Below, one piece after another: positions 3,338-23,182 of a stretch of DNA of 23,448 nucleotides (position 1 is the first letter of the stretch; each line of letters opens with the position of its first letter). The stretch lies in IMG/VR virus record IMGVR_UViG_3300049793_000265, positions 1 through 23,448 of that record. One strand, written 5' to 3'. The position numbers were made by a program, and so were the translations under genes. The notes under the pieces are model-generated. The model had not been told where the DNA came from and ran no database searches. It saw only the letters and a program-made list of their open reading frames with translations. This DNA is from a virus.

Positions 3338-4576
3338 ATGGCACAAGACCCTAATGCGCAATATACTTATGACCCTCAGACTGGCACCTACAAGCAAGCT
3401 GTTGAGCCAACAAAAATTGGCAATGTAGATGTGAATGGGCAGTATGTCCGCTACAGTGATGGCTCCATTCGCAATGCGACCACTGGGCAATCAATGACCC
3501 AAGGTCAGTACAACGACATGATGAACTCCCAAGAGATGGCGAAAAAAGGTTTCAATCCTGACGGCTCAAAAATGCTGAAGCAATTTGACTCGATGATTGA
3601 CCCTACGACCGGGCTCCTCAAAGGTCCCTACAACCTGAATGCAGGAGACTATCAGTATGATCCAACCAAGCTCGACGCAGGTTCGATGGAAGGTTATCAG
3701 GCTTTAAAGGGAGAAGCTCTACGCACGGGCCCTTCTACTTGGGCCCAGTACGCGCAAAATAAAAATAAACTCGACACGCAAGATCTTAAGGACCGCGCTG
3801 TTACTCAGGCGGCCACTTCTGGAAATGCCGCCTATAATAATTTAGCAATGCAGGGCGGGGCCAGATCGGGGGCTGCGAATCGTATTGGTTACAATATGGG
3901 CTCAGCCCTTTTGATGGCTAAGCAAAACGCGCAGCGCACAGGGATGGGGCAGGACTTATCGATTCTTTCTACGGATGAGCAAAATCGCCTTGCAAACCTT
4001 GGAAAATTTCAAGGAGCAGAGCTTGATATAAATAAGTACAACACAGGCCTGTCGAATGATGCTCAGCTTAAGAACCTCTCAGCGAAGTCCGATATTGCTA
4101 AATACAATATGCAAAATGCTCTCACTGAAGTGGGCCAGCAACGTGACTGGGATAAATTGGACTACACTGAGTACAACAAAAAATGGGCTGCTGGCAAACA
4201 GGCTGATGCGACGGCGAGAAGTGGTGGCGGTGGAGGCGGCGGGTGTTGCTTCATATTCCTTGAGGCCAGATACGGAAACGGCACCATGGATAAAGTGGTG
4301 CGTCGGTTTAGGGATGAAAACATGACAGTCCAAAATCGTCGGGGGTATTATAAAGTTTCTGAGGTGCTCGTGCCTTTGATGCGTAAATCAAAACTTATAA
4401 AACTGCTCGTCCGCGTGAGCATGACAAGTCCGCTGGTGGCCTACGGCAAAGCTTTTTACGGTGAAGGCTCCCGATTAGGCCTTGTGCTTAAGCCTGTGGT
4501 TAATTTTTGGCTAAAGACTTTCAATTATCTCGGTGGAGAGCATCCGTTCATTCGTGAGAATGGCGAAACAATTTAA
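3338..4576 (+). CDS. Internal virion/ejection protein with CFI-box-like C-terminal domain
   Basis: A 412-residue two-part protein. Residues 1-295 are Gln, Asn, Ala and Tyr rich and largely helical (for example ALKGEALRTGPSTWAQYAQN and AATSGNAAYNNLAMQGGARS), as in phage internal or ejected proteins. A run of seven glycines (296-302) leads directly into CCFIFLEARYGNG (303-315) and then VVRRFRDENM, ending with hydrophobic-basic segments to residue 412. That C-terminal block resembles the bacterial CFI-box C-terminal domain (consensus close to CFIATAAYGS followed by LRxFRD). A similar block occurs in other phage proteins as I recall them. The ribosome site is AAAGGAAA before ATG at 3338. The virion location is inferred from neighbours; the function of the CFI-like block is unknown. 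Confidence 0.68.
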   Translation: MAQDPNAQYTYDPQTGTYKQAVEPTKIGNVDVNGQYVRYSDGSIRNATTGQSMTQGQYNDMMNSQEMAKKGFNPDGSKMLKQFDSMIDPTTGLLKGPYNLNAGDYQYDPTKLDAGSMEGYQALKGEALRTGPSTWAQYAQNKNKLDTQDLKDRAVTQAATSGNAAYNNLAMQGGARSGAANRIGYNMGSALLMAKQNAQRTGMGQDLSILSTDEQNRLANLGKFQGAELDINKYNTGLSNDAQLKNLSAKSDIAKYNMQNALTEVGQQRDWDKLDYTEYNKKWAAGKQADATARSGGGGGGGCCFIFLEARYGNGTMDKVVRRFRDENMTVQNRRGYYKVSEVLVPLMRKSKLIKLLVRVSMTSPLVAYGKAFYGEGSRLGLVLKPVVNFWLKTFNYLGGEHPFIRENGETI

Positions 4577-4999: not shown

Positions 5000-6156
5000 T
5001 GGCTGGCGCAATTCCCTCCTACCTACAGCCCAACGGGCCTACTCCTGAAGAGCAGGCTCAATACAATATGCTCCAGGCCCTGGGACTTAACTTAGCCCCC
5101 AAGGCCCAGCAACAACTCTTGCCTCCCGATGTGGCGCAACAGGTCCCTCAGTCTTTGCCCCAAGTGGTGATGCCCGCTGACCCACGGGAGGCGCACAATG
5201 CTGAGAGCAAAGCTTTGCAGGCCCGCACTCAAGCGATCAATGACATGTATCGCGCACAAGTGAAGCAGGACATCAACAGACAAGAAGGCAGCATTGACCA
5301 GCTCGGACAATCCATAGCTGCGCTTAAAGGCAAGAAGTTGGACGCAAACCTCTCTCCACTTTTTGCGTTGTCAGATGCTTGGTCTGGCGGAAATATTTCT
5401 AAAGGCTACCAAGCCCCGATGTCAGAAGACGAACGCCAGAAACAAGTGGCGGCACTTCAAAACGAGATCACCAAAGGCCGCTATGGACTTTCACAAACTG
5501 AGATTGAAGCGATGAAAACAGACTTGGCTTCACAAAAAAGTTTGATGGATTCAAAGCAAGGCCGCTTTGATGACGAGCAATTGCGCAAAAAAGAAACCGA
5601 AGTGCAAACAGACGTTAACAAAAACGTGTTCAAAGATATGGACACAGCCAAGCAACAATTCGACACACTAACCACCGCCTTGAGTAGTAGAAATGTCGAG
5701 CGCATTCGCGGGGCTTTATCTAACTACGCACGCACCGTGGGTGGAGAGAAAGGTGTGCTGACTGATAAAGATATCGAGCGCACACTCTTCCCTTCGATCA
5801 CGCAGCTTGTGTCAAACGCTGAGCTGTACTTTGACAAGAATGCGCAGTATGACCCTGCCGACATTGCGAATTTAGAAAACGCTGTGAAGGCAGCGCGCGG
5901 AAACGCAACAAAACTTTACTCCACAAAATTGGATCGCCTTGAGAACCAGTATGGCTCTCGGCAGTCTTATGCAAAAGATGTCATGGCTCCCGGAGGCTTC
6001 GGTCCGCAGCTCTTTAAACAGAGTCGTGAGCAGTTTAAAACGTTCTACGGTAATGGTGAAGCGCCAGGCGGCGTGCAAAAAATATCGGACGAAGAGTATT
6101 TAAAAATGACTCCTGAGCAGAGGGCTGAGTACAAAGCGAAACTGGGAGGAAAATAA
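4999..6156 (+). CDS. Probable internal virion protein, coiled-coil rich
   Basis: A 385-residue hydrophilic protein with no cysteine cluster or membrane segment. After a Pro/Gln-rich N-terminus (about residues 1-65), long helical, probably coiled-coil stretches follow (SKALQARTQAINDMYRAQVK, LQNEITKGRYGLSQTEIEAM, DMDTAKQQFDTLTTALSS), and then a region with LTDKDIERTLFPSITQLVSN. The C-terminus ends in DEEYLKMTPEQRAEYKAKLG. Such proteins typically form part of the ejected internal core. The start overlaps the previous stop (TAATG) and its own stop overlaps the next start in the same way, so the three genes are probably coupled. No enzyme motif was recognised. Confidence 0.65.
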   Translation: MAGAIPSYLQPNGPTPEEQAQYNMLQALGLNLAPKAQQQLLPPDVAQQVPQSLPQVVMPADPREAHNAESKALQARTQAINDMYRAQVKQDINRQEGSIDQLGQSIAALKGKKLDANLSPLFALSDAWSGGNISKGYQAPMSEDERQKQVAALQNEITKGRYGLSQTEIEAMKTDLASQKSLMDSKQGRFDDEQLRKKETEVQTDVNKNVFKDMDTAKQQFDTLTTALSSRNVERIRGALSNYARTVGGEKGVLTDKDIERTLFPSITQLVSNAELYFDKNAQYDPADIANLENAVKAARGNATKLYSTKLDRLENQYGSRQSYAKDVMAPGGFGPQLFKQSREQFKTFYGNGEAPGGVQKISDEEYLKMTPEQRAEYKAKLGGK

Positions 6157-7820
6157 TGCCAAACTCTGAGGAACTGGCCAGGCTCGAGGAGCTCGACCGG
6201 CTCGATAAATTAGACAAGCAAGCAGCTCAAGAGCCCAGTCTTTTAAAACAGCTTGGGCATGGGGCTTTAAAAGCTCTCGACTACACTTCAGGAATCGGGA
6301 GAACTGCTGGTGCTGTGGCGGCAGGTGACGTGTGGGACATGGCCAACGCCATCGGCCTGACAGACAAAGGCTCCCCGATGACAGTGGAGCAAAGAAATAA
6401 TGCCGCTGAGCAAGCCTTTCAAGGGGCTGCTCCGACAACGTCTGAGTACCTTGACATGTACGGCATGAAGCCCGGACTCCCGCGCACAGCCCTTGGCTTT
6501 GTAGGTGACGTGGCCTTAGACCCTGCCAACTATGTGCCTGCTTTGAATATTGCGAGCTGGGCTGGTAAAGGCATGAAGGCTGCTTCGGCAGGTACAAAAG
6601 CTGTGACGGCGGGCATACCTTATGCTGGTAAAGCCGTTGAGTACGGCACAAAGCCCATTGACCTCGTAGCAAACCTTTTGGATCATGGGGCTTCAAAAAC
6701 CGTTGACGCAGGTGGCGAGAACCTCTATAAATCCGCCTTTCATAAAATCGATGAGCAGGCAGCACGTAACCGTGACCTTTCCTGGAAAGCTGCCAAAGGA
6801 ACAACTGACTACTTGGCGCCCAGTGACGTCTTTCTGAAGAACCGTGCCACAGGGACAGCGGCTTCCTTGCGGGATGCTCAGCATGAGATTTCTCAAGCAC
6901 TACTTTCTGAGCGAGAAGGTTTACTAAACAGAGCCACAGATGCTGGCGCCCGCATCGACTATAGCGAAGCCCTGGCCCCGCTGCAAAAAGATCTGCGAAA
7001 TGTCTCTTCAAATTTACCCCTTAAAAAACAAGCTGCTCAAGAGTACCAAGATATTTTGGCGCCTTATATGGACATCGCGAATCGGGAGGCGGGCAAGGCC
7101 ACACCGATTTATGACTTCTCAGCTCACGCTGCGAAACCAAATCCAACGGCAGCCAGAGGGGCAGAGATTGTTATCGACAACGCTCCTGTGGTTCGACCAA
7201 ACACGATGCCACGACAATATCGAGATGTGGGTCCGCACTACGGAGAAGCTCCCCGATTCGGAGAGTCTGTTGTGGACGACTCACTTCTTGGTCAGAGAGC
7301 TGGGGCCTACCCTGGGACTCCGGGCCGAGTGGGAGCTACACCACTTGAGACAGGTGAGAACATCACACACATCAATAGTGCGCTTGCTGACCGGGCCTAT
7401 AAGGACACGGGCAAGAGTTCTATTTTTGAAGGATTTGCGAAACAGCAAGCTAAGCTTTTACGCCAAGCTCAGGAAGCCTCTACCCTGGGGCATGAGATTG
7501 GTGGGAGGACTTTAAAGGACATGAACTCGGAAATGTCAGCTTTGCTTGCAGGCAGTGATGCTGTCACACAAGGGGCCACAAGTGAGGCAGGTAAAAATTT
7601 ATTTACCAGTGTGGACGGAATGCTTCTCTCAAATCCGCAGATATTAGCTGCGAAGAAGATTGCAGACACTCTAAAAACTCCTTGGTTTAGAACCAAAGTA
7701 GGCCTTGGAATGCAGGACTTGGCAACAAACCCCGTGGGAGCTGAGATAATTGATAATATCGCGAAGCGCTCCATTTGGTCAGGCATGACGCCTAACACTC
7801 AAAAGGAGCGCGCAAAATAA
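6156..7820 (+). CDS. Probable large internal virion/ejection protein
   Basis: A 554-residue protein with a strongly amphipathic N-terminus (EELARLEELDRLDKLDKQAA, residues 5-24), then an Ala/Gly-rich segment containing GFVGDVALDPANYVPAL, a motif I associate with large phage internal proteins. The middle is charged and helical (ATDAGARIDYSEALAPLQKD, then KKQAAQEYQDILAPYM). GGGAGGA about 6-8 nt upstream supports the start, which overlaps the previous stop by one base. No lysozyme or transglycosylase catalytic motif was identified. A 303-residue frame on the opposite strand over part of this gene is an antisense shadow. Function is inferred from composition and the surrounding structural genes. 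Confidence 0.65.
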   Translation: MPNSEELARLEELDRLDKLDKQAAQEPSLLKQLGHGALKALDYTSGIGRTAGAVAAGDVWDMANAIGLTDKGSPMTVEQRNNAAEQAFQGAAPTTSEYLDMYGMKPGLPRTALGFVGDVALDPANYVPALNIASWAGKGMKAASAGTKAVTAGIPYAGKAVEYGTKPIDLVANLLDHGASKTVDAGGENLYKSAFHKIDEQAARNRDLSWKAAKGTTDYLAPSDVFLKNRATGTAASLRDAQHEISQALLSEREGLLNRATDAGARIDYSEALAPLQKDLRNVSSNLPLKKQAAQEYQDILAPYMDIANREAGKATPIYDFSAHAAKPNPTAARGAEIVIDNAPVVRPNTMPRQYRDVGPHYGEAPRFGESVVDDSLLGQRAGAYPGTPGRVGATPLETGENITHINSALADRAYKDTGKSSIFEGFAKQQAKLLRQAQEASTLGHEIGGRTLKDMNSEMSALLAGSDAVTQGATSEAGKNLFTSVDGMLLSNPQILAAKKIADTLKTPWFRTKVGLGMQDLATNPVGAEIIDNIAKRSIWSGMTPNTQKERAK

Positions 7821-15282: not shown

Positions 15283-17835
15283 ATGCACCAGGGTATTCAC
15301 GACTACTTAATGTCGGAAGGTTTAGACGGCCTTGCAAAACAATCTTATACTCTTGACGATCAAATTCATAATGTCACTGATGACGCTGCTTTTAAAGGCT
15401 GGTATGTCGGCTCTGAATTTCAACTTGATAATGGTGAGCACATCGTCACACTCACAATTGGCAATTGGAGAAGTGGGAAAAAATATCACTATTCTTCTAA
15501 GCCAAATCTTGATGAAGCTGATCAAAGAAAATTAGACCGGCTACAAAAAGAACGGCTTGCGACGTTTGAAAAATACCGCAAAGAAATGCAGCTCAAGACA
15601 GCCGAGAGTTCTCAGAAAATATTTGCGACCTTTGATACTGATGGACTCACTCCCTATATGGAGAGAAAACTTATTCCCGAACTCTACGGCTGCCGCATTC
15701 GCAAAGCGATGGGCGCTGTTGACCTTATAGTTCCCATGCGCGATGTCGATGATTTCTTGTGGGGCTACCAGATTATTTCTGAGGACGGCTCCAAATCAAT
15801 TCGTGAAGAGCAAAAATTGGAGGAGACGTTCCACCTCATCGGGGGGCCGATTAATTCGCAGGATGTGGTTTATATTTGCGAAGGATTCGCCACAGGTGTG
15901 TCCATTTACAAGGCCATCCAAAAACCTGTGCTCTGTACTTTCACAGCTCAGAATTTACCAAAAGTCGCTAAGAGAGTCCGCGAAACCTATGAGGATGTGT
16001 GCGTAGTGATCGCAGGCGACGATGATAAATGGGGCAAGGATAACCAAGGCAGAGAAATGGCGCTTGAGGCCCAAGACGTTTCCTTCGGGCTTGCCATCTT
16101 TCCCTTCTTTCCAGATCACGTGGCTGAGAAAAAACCAACTGACTTTAATGACCTGGAGGCACTTAAGGGCCTGCAAGAATGCACTGAGCAGATCATGCTG
16201 CATAAACCCCCTCGTCCCCCGAAGGTTTTTTTCTTGGGATATAGCGGTAAAAATTATTTCTACTCAACTACTCAGAACCCACAAATCTCCCCACTCTCTG
16301 ACTTCTCGACCACTGAGCTCTATAAACTATTGGACTCCCGCTATTGGAAAACCAAGTTTCCGACCTACATTAAAAAAGAAGTCCAAGTAGATCTTGATAA
16401 AGCCAAGGCCTGGCTCATTGAAAACAACAGACGGCGCGGACCTTTTAATTCTGGGAACCAGCGAGGCCGCGGCGTTTGGATGGACAGACAGCGTATCGTC
16501 TATCACCTTGGTCAAACGATGTACGTGGCTGAGAATAAAAACTTAGAGACGCTGACTGAGACGCACATCCAAGCTTTGCAAGATTCTAAATACATTTATA
16601 CTTTCGCAGCAAATATTGGCTCATCGCCAGCCGAGACGCTGAGTGTTTTGGAGAGGGAATCCCTACGTTCCATCTGCCATCAATTGAAGTGGAAATATCC
16701 GCATCATGCGCAACTGTTTCTCGGCTGGCTCATTTTATCACCATTGTCTGGGGCCCTTCGTTGGCGTCCACACATTTGGATGACCGGGCAAAAGGGATCG
16801 GGAAAGTCTACAGTGATGGATGAAATTGTCTCGCCTATTTTTTCTGAGATTCGCCACTTCAAAGGACAAAAAGTTACTGAGGCAGGACTTCGTCAGGAAG
16901 TGAGACGGGACGCCTGCCCCGTGGTACTTGACGAATTTGAGCCCACAGATGGGGCCTACAAACAAATCTTGCAGCTTGCCCGTGTGGCAAGTTCTAGGGA
17001 CGGAAAATTATTTAAAGGGACAGTGACGGGTGACGCCATGGAATTCAACGCGAGCTTTAGTGCCTGCTTTGCTTCTATTGATCTCCCTCACTTAGAGGAA
17101 GCTGACAAGTCACGAATAGCCGTGCTTGAGCTTTCAGGGGATGAACAGAATGAGTGGCCTAAATTGAGAACTCTAATCCAAAACACATTAACAGAAGACT
17201 TCTCTAAAAAATTCATGTGGACAGCGCTCCGCGTTCTCCCGATGATTCAAGCCTCAAGTGACATGATGACACAAGCTTTTGTGTCGTTAGGCCATGGCGC
17301 CCGGTACGGGGATCTGTACGGTGGGATGCTGGCAGGTCTTTTCTGCTTCACGCATGAGAGAACTCTCACACTAGAGGAAGCCAAAACGATCGCGACTGAG
17401 TGGCTTGAGAACGAGAACAAGTTTGACAACATCGATGATACAAGTTCGCAAGAAGACTGTATTGAGCACCTGCTAAACTTCTCCATCCGTGTAGACACGG
17501 CAGATGGCACAAAAATGATGCCACTTAAAAAAGTGATTGAGAATCATGAGACTTATAACTCCACACTTGAAAACTATGGCCTACAGATTAAATCAGAAAA
17601 TGGGCATGATGGTCTTTTTGTGCCTTCCAAAAATCCGCAGCTTGCAGACATCTTTAAAGGAACTCAGTGGAGCGGGGACTGGAAGCAGCCACTTAAGCGT
17701 TTACCAGAAGCCACGTTTGCGAATTATCGCCAGCAAAAAGATAAGTCCAGAAAACAAAAAAGCGGCATTTTCATCCCGCTTAAAACTATTCACATTGATG
17801 CTAAAAAAGATGTGTTGGATCGGGAGCCGAGCTAG
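15283..17835 (+). CDS. TOPRIM primase - DUF927/DUF5906-like helicase fusion
   Basis: An 850-residue replication protein combining a primase-type TOPRIM domain with a helicase/ATPase domain. The TOPRIM glutamate is in VVYICEGFATG (E200), and the second motif is VIAGDDDKWG. The ATPase domain has Walker A TGQKGSGKST (K508) and Walker B CPVVLDEFEP (D550, E551). The N-terminal 100 residues (AAFKGWYVGS, GKKYHYSSKP) are of the plasmid TraC-like primase type; no zinc-binding cysteine set is seen, as usual for that type. The protein would prime and unwind at the fork, with the family A polymerase. Rightward, isolated among leftward genes, with its own ribosome site AGGGGGAA. Confidence 0.88.
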   Translation: MHQGIHDYLMSEGLDGLAKQSYTLDDQIHNVTDDAAFKGWYVGSEFQLDNGEHIVTLTIGNWRSGKKYHYSSKPNLDEADQRKLDRLQKERLATFEKYRKEMQLKTAESSQKIFATFDTDGLTPYMERKLIPELYGCRIRKAMGAVDLIVPMRDVDDFLWGYQIISEDGSKSIREEQKLEETFHLIGGPINSQDVVYICEGFATGVSIYKAIQKPVLCTFTAQNLPKVAKRVRETYEDVCVVIAGDDDKWGKDNQGREMALEAQDVSFGLAIFPFFPDHVAEKKPTDFNDLEALKGLQECTEQIMLHKPPRPPKVFFLGYSGKNYFYSTTQNPQISPLSDFSTTELYKLLDSRYWKTKFPTYIKKEVQVDLDKAKAWLIENNRRRGPFNSGNQRGRGVWMDRQRIVYHLGQTMYVAENKNLETLTETHIQALQDSKYIYTFAANIGSSPAETLSVLERESLRSICHQLKWKYPHHAQLFLGWLILSPLSGALRWRPHIWMTGQKGSGKSTVMDEIVSPIFSEIRHFKGQKVTEAGLRQEVRRDACPVVLDEFEPTDGAYKQILQLARVASSRDGKLFKGTVTGDAMEFNASFSACFASIDLPHLEEADKSRIAVLELSGDEQNEWPKLRTLIQNTLTEDFSKKFMWTALRVLPMIQASSDMMTQAFVSLGHGARYGDLYGGMLAGLFCFTHERTLTLEEAKTIATEWLENENKFDNIDDTSSQEDCIEHLLNFSIRVDTADGTKMMPLKKVIENHETYNSTLENYGLQIKSENGHDGLFVPSKNPQLADIFKGTQWSGDWKQPLKRLPEATFANYRQQKDKSRKQKSGIFIPLKTIHIDAKKDVLDREPS

Positions 17836-21170: not shown

Positions 21171-21175
21171 TTTAA

Positions 21176-21478
21176 CTAATCCTCACCGAAACCGGAACCG
21201 AAACCGAAACCGAAACCGAAACCGGAACCGAAACCGTCACCTGGACCGGAACCGTCACCTGAACCTGAACCGGAACCGTCACCTGAACCGGAACCGTCAC
21301 CGGAACCGTCACCGGAACCGAAACCGGAACCGTCACCTGAACCGTCACCTGAACCGGAACCGGAACCGAAACCGTCACCGGAACCGGAACCGAAACCGGA
21401 ACCGAAACCGTCACCGGAACCGGTACCGGAACCGTCACCGAAACCGAAACCGAAACCGTAATTAATTATTTGGTCCAT
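21176..21478 (-). CDS. Glycine-X dipeptide repeat protein
   Basis: A 100-residue protein: six N-terminal residues MDQIIN, then 46 consecutive X-Gly pairs, then ED. X is Ser 20 times, Phe 13, Asp 10, and once each Tyr, Thr, Pro. Phe is concentrated at both ends (pairs 2-4 and 39-46) and Asp is scattered through the middle. The ATG overlaps the DUF6948-like gene by 13 nt with GAGGCGG upstream, and the stop is 5 nt before the DUF7352-like start, so it fits in the operon. Gly-rich repeat proteins of this style occur next to DUF6948-like genes in other phages as I recall. Function unknown; the composition would give a flexible, disordered chain. A second frame through the array is also open (Val-Pro), rejected here. 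Confidence 0.65.
21185..21460. repeat. Tandem hexamer array, 46 units
   Basis: Forty-six hexamers of plus-strand form ACCNNN without a break or frame change over 276 bp (units such as ACCGAA, ACCGGA, ACCGTC, with the third base pair pattern varying). Each unit is one Gly codon (GGT) plus one variable codon on the minus strand. Because the unit is a multiple of 3, length changes by slippage would keep the reading frame. Confidence 0.92.
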
Positions 21479-21790: not shown

Positions 21791-21997
21791 TCATACACCC
21801 TCTAAATCCTCAAAATCTTGTGCTACCTCTGGCGTACTGCCCATAACTCTTTTATAAAATTCAATAAGGCTCCGAAAAACCTCTGGCTCTAAAAATATTT
21901 GATTAGTCTCTCCCGCCTCATTACCAGTATCCAACCTAACCATCCCGCTATCTATTTCGGCGTAAACGCCATCCCCTAAATAAGTTCTTGGTATCAT
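21791..21997 (-). CDS. Small conserved phage protein
   Basis: A 68-residue acidic protein with YLGDGVYAEIDSGMVRLDTG near the N-terminus and IFLEPEVFRSLIEFYKRVMG, a pattern I recall from many small phage proteins (YLGDGVYAxxDG ... LxPEVLxAL), which have no assigned function. AAGGAG lies 5 nt before the ATG, which overlaps the preceding stop by 4 nt (ATGA). It is followed by a 28-bp gap before the DUF6948-like gene. Confidence 0.68.
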   Translation of the reverse strand: MIPRTYLGDGVYAEIDSGMVRLDTGNEAGETNQIFLEPEVFRSLIEFYKRVMGSTPEVAQDFEDLEGV

Positions 21998-22641
21998 TTG
22001 ATCTCCTTTGCAAATTTCAATAAATCAAGCTTGGCTCTGGCCACGTGGACTATTTGATTTGCACACGCGATTGCTGTGTGCACTCTTTCTGGGTCATACA
22101 GCTTCACTGCCGTGTCCGGCTGATTGCTCCGCAAGCCCTTCATCGAAGAGAACAGCTCCTGGCCCAAATCGTTCAAGGAATTCACTGAGTGTAATACTTC
22201 CTGATTTAAGTTGACTGATAAGTCGGCTAAGGGCTCGGGTAGGTTGTCGCTTATCACGGGAAGCATAGATGAGTCCTCTGAGGCGCTCTTTGTTGGCGTT
22301 ATAAAATTTTCGGTTGTAGGCCCGCTGCGCTTCTCGGTGGGCTCGGGCATACTCAACACGCTGCTGGTTTCTTTTTTCTCGATCGGCATAATATCTGGTC
22401 CTGGCCTTTTCTCGCTCGCGCTCAATATTTTTAAGCCGCCGCGCTTTATCTTTTGCGGCTTTAGCAGCTCGCCAAACTGGGTCTTGATACTGCTCTCGAC
22501 TCTTCTCTCTTCGGGCTCTACGTCTTTTTTCGAGCTGCTCAGGGGAACGTCCCACTCCATCTCCTTAATACATACGTCACACCAGGGAGTGCCCCCATAA
22601 TTAGCAAAACTCCGTTTGCAAGACTGACAGGTTGTGATCAT
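21994..22641 (-). CDS. Zinc-ribbon phage protein with long linker
   Basis: A 215-residue protein with an N-terminal zinc-ribbon-like cysteine set C5-x2-C8 and C21-x2-C24 (TTCQSCKRSF, WCDVCIKE). A low-complexity linker rich in Ser, Glu, Lys and Pro covers about residues 33-140, then helical sequence (EPLADLSVNLNQEVLHSVNS, LNDLGQELFSSMKGL) and a C-terminal helix HTAIACANQIVHVARAKLDL that resembles conserved ends of phage proteins. ATG and the previous TGA overlap by 4 nt. Nucleic acid binding is a guess from the cysteines. The linker is also covered by a nested gene in another frame (22094-22555), so this gene may be constrained twice over. Confidence 0.68.
   Translation of the reverse strand: MITTCQSCKRSFANYGGTPWCDVCIKEMEWDVPLSSSKKDVEPEERRVESSIKTQFGELLKPQKIKRGGLKILSASEKRPGPDIMPIEKKETSSVLSMPEPTEKRSGPTTENFITPTKSASEDSSMLPVISDNLPEPLADLSVNLNQEVLHSVNSLNDLGQELFSSMKGLRSNQPDTAVKLYDPERVHTAIACANQIVHVARAKLDLLKFAKEIK
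22094..22555 (-). CDS. Arg-rich protein, nested in the zinc-ribbon gene
   Basis: A 153-residue frame, GTG 22555 to 22094, lies wholly inside the 215-residue gene in another frame. AAGGAG is 5 nt before its GTG. The product is strongly basic (for example RRRARREKSREQYQ) and contains a repeating R/E/Y/N motif: RYYADREKRNQQRVEYARAH, AYNRKFYNANKERLRG. This kind of repeat is known from the N-terminal portion of some phage HNH or homing-type proteins and their relatives; no HNH catalytic residues follow here. The last about 50 residues (TRALSRLISQLKSGSITLSE, FLERFGPG) look folded. That both frames look protein-like is unusual; an artefact of R-rich codons is the alternative. Confidence 0.52.
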   Translation of the reverse strand: MGRSPEQLEKRRRARREKSREQYQDPVWRAAKAAKDKARRLKNIEREREKARTRYYADREKRNQQRVEYARAHREAQRAYNRKFYNANKERLRGLIYASRDKRQPTRALSRLISQLKSGSITLSEFLERFGPGAVLFDEGLAEQSAGHGSEAV

Positions 22642-22922
22642 TCTGCCTCCGCAAGAATCTTGTCGATTTTCGCAAATAATATTCGTAGCCCATCAGGCCC
22701 CCGATAACCCTTAAGCTCTGGCTCAAGTTTTCCCCAGTCAGAATTTATAAAACCCTCGAAATTTCTTCGCAGCATCTCAATGACTTGGTCACGGACTAAA
22801 ACTCTTTGATGGAAATACTCCACGCGAGCTAAAACGCTTCTAAAAATTTCCACGCGCTGCTCATCGGGGAGCTTGTTGATGGCGGCGGGGTTTAGGGCAT
22901 AGAGAGAAACATCGCCTGTCAT
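22638..22922 (-). CDS. Small hypothetical protein
   Basis: 94 residues from ATG 22922, which overlaps the previous TGA (ATGA); the GTG four codons earlier is the alternative. Mostly helical (KLPDEQRVEIFRSVLARVEY, DQVIEMLRRNFEGFINSDWG) with no cysteines. Ends in an ATGA overlap with the zinc-ribbon gene. No family recognised. Confidence 0.58.
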   Translation of the reverse strand: MTGDVSLYALNPAAINKLPDEQRVEIFRSVLARVEYFHQRVLVRDQVIEMLRRNFEGFINSDWGKLEPELKGYRGPDGLRILFAKIDKILAEAE

Positions 22923-23182
22923 TCTAGTACCCACTTCTTAACTTCAGTTTTTACTAGTTTAACTTTTGCACCACCACTTGAGCCTGGATCAGAAACCCCA
23001 GATGCAATTTTTTCATTCCCGCGTTTACCACACGAAAGACAAACAACAGCTGGCAAAACATTGTTGTGATAGTTAGCATCATTATAACCATACTTTAAAG
23101 TTTGAGTTTTCCCGCAGTGCTCACACTCAAGAACTGCATCAAAATCATTTCTGTGCAGAGAAGTTATTTCTAAAATTTTCAT
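22919..23182 (-). CDS. Small zinc-ribbon phage protein
   Basis: I start at ATG 23182, with GGAGGG 6 nt upstream, giving 87 residues; the longer form from 23209 adds unsupported residues. C20-x2-C23 (LECEHCG) and C48-x2-C51 (CLSCGK) form a four-cysteine zinc ribbon, with YGYNDANYHNNVLPAVVC between. The pattern (MKILEITS ... HRNDF, CEHCG) recurs in phage proteins as I recall. Function unknown; metal binding is likely. Overlaps both neighbours by 4 nt. Confidence 0.7.
   Translation of the reverse strand: MKILEITSLHRNDFDAVLECEHCGKTQTLKYGYNDANYHNNVLPAVVCLSCGKRGNEKIASGVSDPGSSGGAKVKLVKTEVKKWVLE

Follow-up and report, generated by a model that had tools for sequence, protein, structure and literature searches.

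A probable pair of out-of-frame overlapping genes in the early region of an uncultured phage and of a distant relative

Two reading frames on the minus strand

The window (the whole stretch of 23,448 nucleotides analysed here) is the linear IMG/VR virus record IMGVR_UViG_3300049793_000265, from an uncultured bacterial virus. An earlier note had described in it a 462-nt open reading frame (ORF) with its own AAGGAG and GTG, lying on the same strand as a 215-residue frame and in a different phase. Both frames were found as described, on the minus strand. The features used below are the following.

21994-22641, minus strand: "zinc" ORF, 215 aa, ATG start, with a CxxC-CxxC ribbon (residues 1-26), a disordered linker (~59-131) and a helical hairpin (136-214)
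22094-22555, minus strand: gene A, the nested Arg-rich ORF, 153 aa, GTG start, pI 10.8
21994-22350, minus strand: gene B, the C-terminal stretch of the zinc frame, which is conserved and has a homologue in phage G038 (see below)
22094-22350, minus strand: predicted A/B dual-coding overlap of 257 nt, in which both frames are open and resemble those of G038 more closely than the partner frame would force
22094-22234, minus strand: part of the overlap with both proteins conserved (A, ALSRLISQLKSGSITLSEFLER; B, LNQEVLHSVN)
22351-22555, minus strand: 5′ portion of the overlap, 205 nt, where the A N-terminus lies over the zinc-ORF linker, dual coding unsupported

The GTG of gene A follows AAGGAG at a distance of 5 nt (−10.1 kcal/mol), and the ATG of the zinc ORF follows GGAGG at 4 nt (−9.5 kcal/mol), to be compared with −8.4 kcal/mol for the 5% quantile of random positions. 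The zinc ORF overlaps both of its neighbours by ATGA, with its start at 22641 on the stop of 22638-22934 upstream, and its stop on the start of 21791-21997 downstream. No stop is present in the zinc frame ahead of 21994, so that a ribosome coming from 22641 must continue into B. Two internal ATG codons are candidate starts for gene B, one at 22350, the position homologous to the start of B in G038, and one at 22266, which has a better Shine-Dalgarno sequence (AGAGGA) and would give a 90-aa product. The Shine-Dalgarno sequences of the internal B starts in the window are only moderate (−3.5 to −5.9).

The zinc ORF has four cysteines (5, 8, 21 and 24) arranged as CxxC...CxxC at residues 5-24, and gave no significant family match in Pfam or PHROG. 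Its structural model (pLDDT ~60-82) consists of a ribbon-like start, with low-pLDDT strands at 2-4 and 11-13, disorder at ~59-131, and the helical hairpin at 136-214, whose helix 1 (136-171) is encoded inside A. The low-complexity linker had been thought to lie exactly where the two frames overlap. It is indeed included, but the overlap also covers predicted helix 136-171, and we therefore rejected the view that the overlap is disordered linker only. The product of gene B is a small, slightly acidic, predicted helical hairpin. Gene A was modelled from a two-sequence alignment as a long helix (26-87) followed by small C-terminal helices (pLDDT 77). It had no significant family, PDB or fold match. 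The hits obtained in Pfam, PHROG, PDB and Foldseek searches (LegC3_N, DUF3408, ExoVII small subunit, UspA1 and NUMOD3-like) were all non-significant and were discarded. The charge of A (its G038 homologue has a pI of 10.3) and its helices weakly suggest binding to nucleic acid, and basic A and acidic B may, again weakly, act together.

Elsewhere in the window, a 12-bp unit (ACCGAAACCGGA) is repeated in tandem ~23 times at 21172-21458. Read on the minus strand it gives 88 aa of VPVTVPVQ repeat, placed between the DUF6948 gene and the small gene next to it. The C-terminus encoded by 3338-4576 (CCFIFLEARYGNG...LGGEHPFIRENGE) resembles the CFI-box domain at the C-terminus of other proteins from phages and bacteria.

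Could the two frames be recognised from the single sequence? Given the zinc frame, the 156-codon open run of the nested frame was rare under synonymous permutation (p = 0.0004), genome codon usage (0/5000) and codon-order shuffle (p = 0.0002). The zinc frame was open given the nested codons in 60% of permutations, 32% of order shuffles and 0.4% of draws from genome usage. Codon-model scores across the overlap were 0.101 for A, 0.083 for the zinc frame and −0.137 for the third frame, on a scale where the in-frame values of real genes are 0.08-0.26 and their out-of-frame values mostly negative. The window nevertheless has nine further ORFs of 87-191 aa that lie within or across genes on the same strand and out of frame, and ORF length was rejected as proof of a nested gene on that account. 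Because these nine are comparable, single-sequence evidence is insufficient, and it is the homologue in G038 that decides. Among the other nested window ORFs, those that could be compared had 2 to 11 stops in every relative examined. The longest antisense frame of the window, a 303-aa ORF at 6100-7011 (minus strand) across the virion gene 6156-7820, is probably due to chance.

A relative with both frames, and tests of dual coding

Direct protein searches of viral databases gave nothing: close-relative scans of viral contigs with either protein and with an alignment of A had no match, nor did named phages match the window proteins or their G038 homologues, except for a non-significant hit of A to a Streptomyces phage HNH endonuclease (E 1). 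In 35 records reached via neighbour genes (DUF6948, phrog_14808), the zinc protein was not found. The DNA polymerase and SNF2 helicase then led to syntenic distant phages, in one of which both frames were recovered. Protein searches of 45-46 related records, made independently with A and with the zinc protein, pointed to the same spot of one record, in two frames. This record, G038 (IMGVR_UViG_3300037882_002198), is the nearest relative by helicase (52% identity), and its matches are on the same strand, at 23344-23628 for the zinc protein and 23489-23803 for the nested one. The remaining related records among the 45-46 had no A/B pair, which is thus found in two genomes only. The G038 genes are the following.

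L113:9439-9876, minus strand: homologue of gene A, 145 aa, Arg/Lys-rich, pairwise BLASTP E 2e-5
L113:9312-9650, minus strand: homologue of gene B, 112 aa, start inside A, BLASTP E 2e-5

Phase and order are identical in the two phages and sizes match, with an overlap of 212 nt in G038 for 257 nt in the window, and in both the stop of B forms ATGA with the start of the next gene. A stop lies two codons before the B ATG of G038, and B must therefore begin inside A in this phage. The G038 A GTG has a weak Shine-Dalgarno sequence (−2.9). Pairwise identities between window and G038 are of 27-30%, single-frame E-values are modest (3e-4, 0.005), and part of the A similarity is Lys/Arg composition. Searched as a DNA pattern, the block shared by the two phages had G038 as its sole match among viral contigs, and six cellular contigs carrying the pattern had no convincing profile support for an A/B pair.

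In G038, the pair lies directly upstream of a helicase half: the 850-aa primase-helicase of the window (15283-17835) matches two G038 pieces, L113 8026-9315 and 13575-13997, ~4.3 kb apart. Near the pair, a simple repeat (ESAARSAAESAV) at L113 10438-11121 lies within a 227-aa ORF and is open in more than one frame.

Dual coding was tested with a null model in which one protein is kept in both phages and synonymous codons are redrawn from genome usage. The model requires saturated synonymous sites, which was the case: in core genes of the same phage pair, the same codon was used at identical residues with a frequency of 0.29-0.44, for 0.31-0.40 expected. Given A, the B frame was open in both phages in 0.1% of redraws, and its similarity was 64, versus 20-23 (sd 4-5) expected (20.5 ± 4.1 with genome usage; p < 1/4000). 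Given B, no redraw left the A frame open in both phages, and the A-frame similarity was 69, versus 20-23 expected (19.6 ± 3.8 with genome usage; p < 1/4000). With B kept and genome codon usage, A was open in 0.0000 of the window resamples and 0.0003 of the G038 resamples. As a control, 0/528 alternative-frame windows in core genes were open in both genomes, and alternative-frame scores were ≤35 in control windows with a comparable main-frame score.

The signal differs between segments. At 22094-22234, B given A scored 57, versus 16.8 ± 3.8 expected (p < 1/4000), and A given B scored 36, versus 16.5 ± 4.2 (p 0.0005). The middle segment, 22235-22350, shows conservation of A (33 vs 16.5, p 0.0013), with B merely open. 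At 22351-22555, openness of the zinc frame given A is expected by chance (0.23-0.59 of resamples), similarity to G038 in the zinc/B frame is nil (23, versus 21 expected), and the G038 frame equivalent to ribbon and linker has four stops across the first 75 codons of A.

Each of the two frames thus has a start codon and stays open for a considerable length. Conservation beyond what one frame forces was found, in one relative, for the 3′ 257 nt, and does not extend over the full 462-nt nest, as the linker frame is broken in G038. By this comparison of two phages, A and B, as predicted proteins, are a genuine overlapping gene pair over 22094-22350. The proposal of two proteins in two frames is supported for the 3′ part, where G038 keeps both, and unsupported for the 5′ part. 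There, the zinc-equivalent frame of G038 is broken while A stays intact, a pattern that the note had named as refuting, and dual coding over all 462 nt is not supported. The nest may then consist of a 257-nt dual-coding overlap and a 205-nt stretch in which the zinc frame is possibly passive read-through.

The preferred reading, its alternatives and the history of the overlap

We conclude that the early region of these phages probably holds an overlapping pair A/B, with A translated from its own GTG and the first half of B lying inside the 3′ 257 nt of A. Gene A would give, through its GTG and AAGGAG, a very basic, largely helical 153-aa protein, and gene B a helical-hairpin protein whose first half is encoded there in +1 phase. 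In G038, B would be made through internal initiation or re-initiation next to A translation. In the window, the hairpin most likely forms the C-terminal end of a 215-aa fusion protein with the zinc ribbon, because the B frame runs stop-free to the ribbon with its strong start; this may come with or without an additional short form of B from the ATG at 22266 or 22350. Both frames would be translated, and co-expressed through a shared message and the ATGA couplings.

The alternative that survives best is overprinting of the complete nest, with the 215-aa zinc protein selected along its whole length and all 462 nt dual coding. The strong, ATGA-coupled start at 22641, the stop-free frame down to 21994 that takes the ribosome into B, and a positive zinc-frame codon score throughout the overlap speak for it. 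We nevertheless hold it unlikely: the linker frame is open by chance given A, N-terminal similarity to G038 is absent, and the equivalent G038 frame has four stops and no ribbon.

It could also be that the zinc ribbon and A form one protein, by a −1 shift or an indel of the record near the GAAAAAAG run (~22520-22527), B being separate with an internal start. A shift at the run of six A's (~22521-22526) would make the ribbon continue into RRRARREKSRE of A, the zinc-frame linker is unconserved, and B would start internally as it does in G038. However, in the zinc frame the run does not form a canonical slippery heptamer, short-read data seldom err at such six-A runs, A has a strong Shine-Dalgarno sequence and GTG of its own, and A in G038 starts alone, without a ribbon. 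These points make the fusion improbable.

That only B is real (with or without the ribbon), A being a spurious frame echoing its similarity, seems more improbable still. Purine-rich linkers easily yield Arg/Glu-rich frames opposite, and over the 3′ 140 nt conservation is stronger in B than in A (57 vs 36). On the other side, A is almost never open in resamples that keep B, it alone is conserved in the middle segment, and its codon usage is nearer to that of the genome than B's in most segments. Finally, conservation of the shared stretch as nucleotide sequence (an RNA or a protein-binding site) rather than as two proteins is very doubtful: the two phages have an almost identical block, TCAGGAARTATKWCACTCRRTGAATT, where similarity extends to the third frame, but an Rfam search gave no match to a known RNA element, the frames are open far past the block, the B domain is conserved beyond the A stop, and A is conserved ahead of the block. 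The third frame of 22094-22234 (L113 9439-9552) is itself unusually similar between the phages (49 vs 16), more than one of the two proteins by itself would require, and nucleotide-level conservation of another kind could contribute at this place.

Returning to the overlapping pair A/B, which of the two frames came first? In 4 of 5 overlapping segments of the two phages, it is A rather than the zinc/B frame whose synonymous usage is nearer to the genome, the exception being the middle segment of the window (−0.061 vs −0.038). T-ending codons make up 9-13% of the zinc/B frame of the window, versus 30% genome-wide, an age signal that is merely suggestive since the non-overlapping part of B is also low in T-ending codons. 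Codon usage thus hints that A is the older frame. As the zinc ribbon is missing in G038, the simplest history is an A/B terminal overlap, followed by joining of the B frame to the ribbon in the window lineage. The suggestion of a new gene overprinted on a linker runs against both observations. If anything, these sequences point to the opposite direction, an extension of the zinc-to-B frame across an older A, and birth of a new gene in the linker is the less likely course. Tentatively, and with less than even confidence, we propose that an upstream zinc-ribbon start captured B across the whole of an older A, turning the terminal overlap seen in G038 into complete nesting. If true, the window is a snapshot of nested genes forming by N-terminal extension, not by gene birth in a linker.

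Comparison with known systems

Long same-strand overlaps in metagenomic phages are hard to separate from chance ORFs, and gene callers usually drop one of the frames. Where synonymous sites are saturated, as here, a single distant relative can be enough to tell the real part of an overlap from the rest. Related phages here offer two states, terminal overlap and full nest, in which the origin of nesting can be tested.

The B hairpin aligns to positions 3-64 of 78 of phrog_2044, a family of phage proteins of ~78 aa that carries the label RNA polymerase beta subunit, which is no evidence of function. A clear member is carried by L096 (E 1.6e-10), and is a small, probably helical protein. For B itself, the E-value was 1.1e-4 within this genome and 0.011-0.022 against the library, the latter below confident membership, and the G038 B homologue had no match to this family.

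The phage proteins Rz and Rz1 of lambda are read in different phases, one gene lying within the other, and in this A and B are like them. They differ from the lambda spanins (PMC5295617, PMC6139136) in that no signal or lipobox features were seen in A or B, that they lie in an early region and not in a lysis cassette, and that they are not homologous to them.

In a survey of dsDNA viruses, +1 was the commonest phase among overlaps other than those of 1 or 4 nt, with a median +1 overlap of 14 nt (IQR 8-26) (PMC8903798). The A/B overlap differs from these by its length of 212-257 nt and by being common to two phages.

Overlapping genes of the phiX174 type include E, nested in D, and K, across the end of A (PMC8227390). 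The proteins are unrelated to those described here, which are predicted products of a tailed dsDNA phage. The arrangement is nevertheless alike, as in both cases the overlaps are on the same strand and out of frame, G038 corresponding to the terminal type and the window to the internal type.
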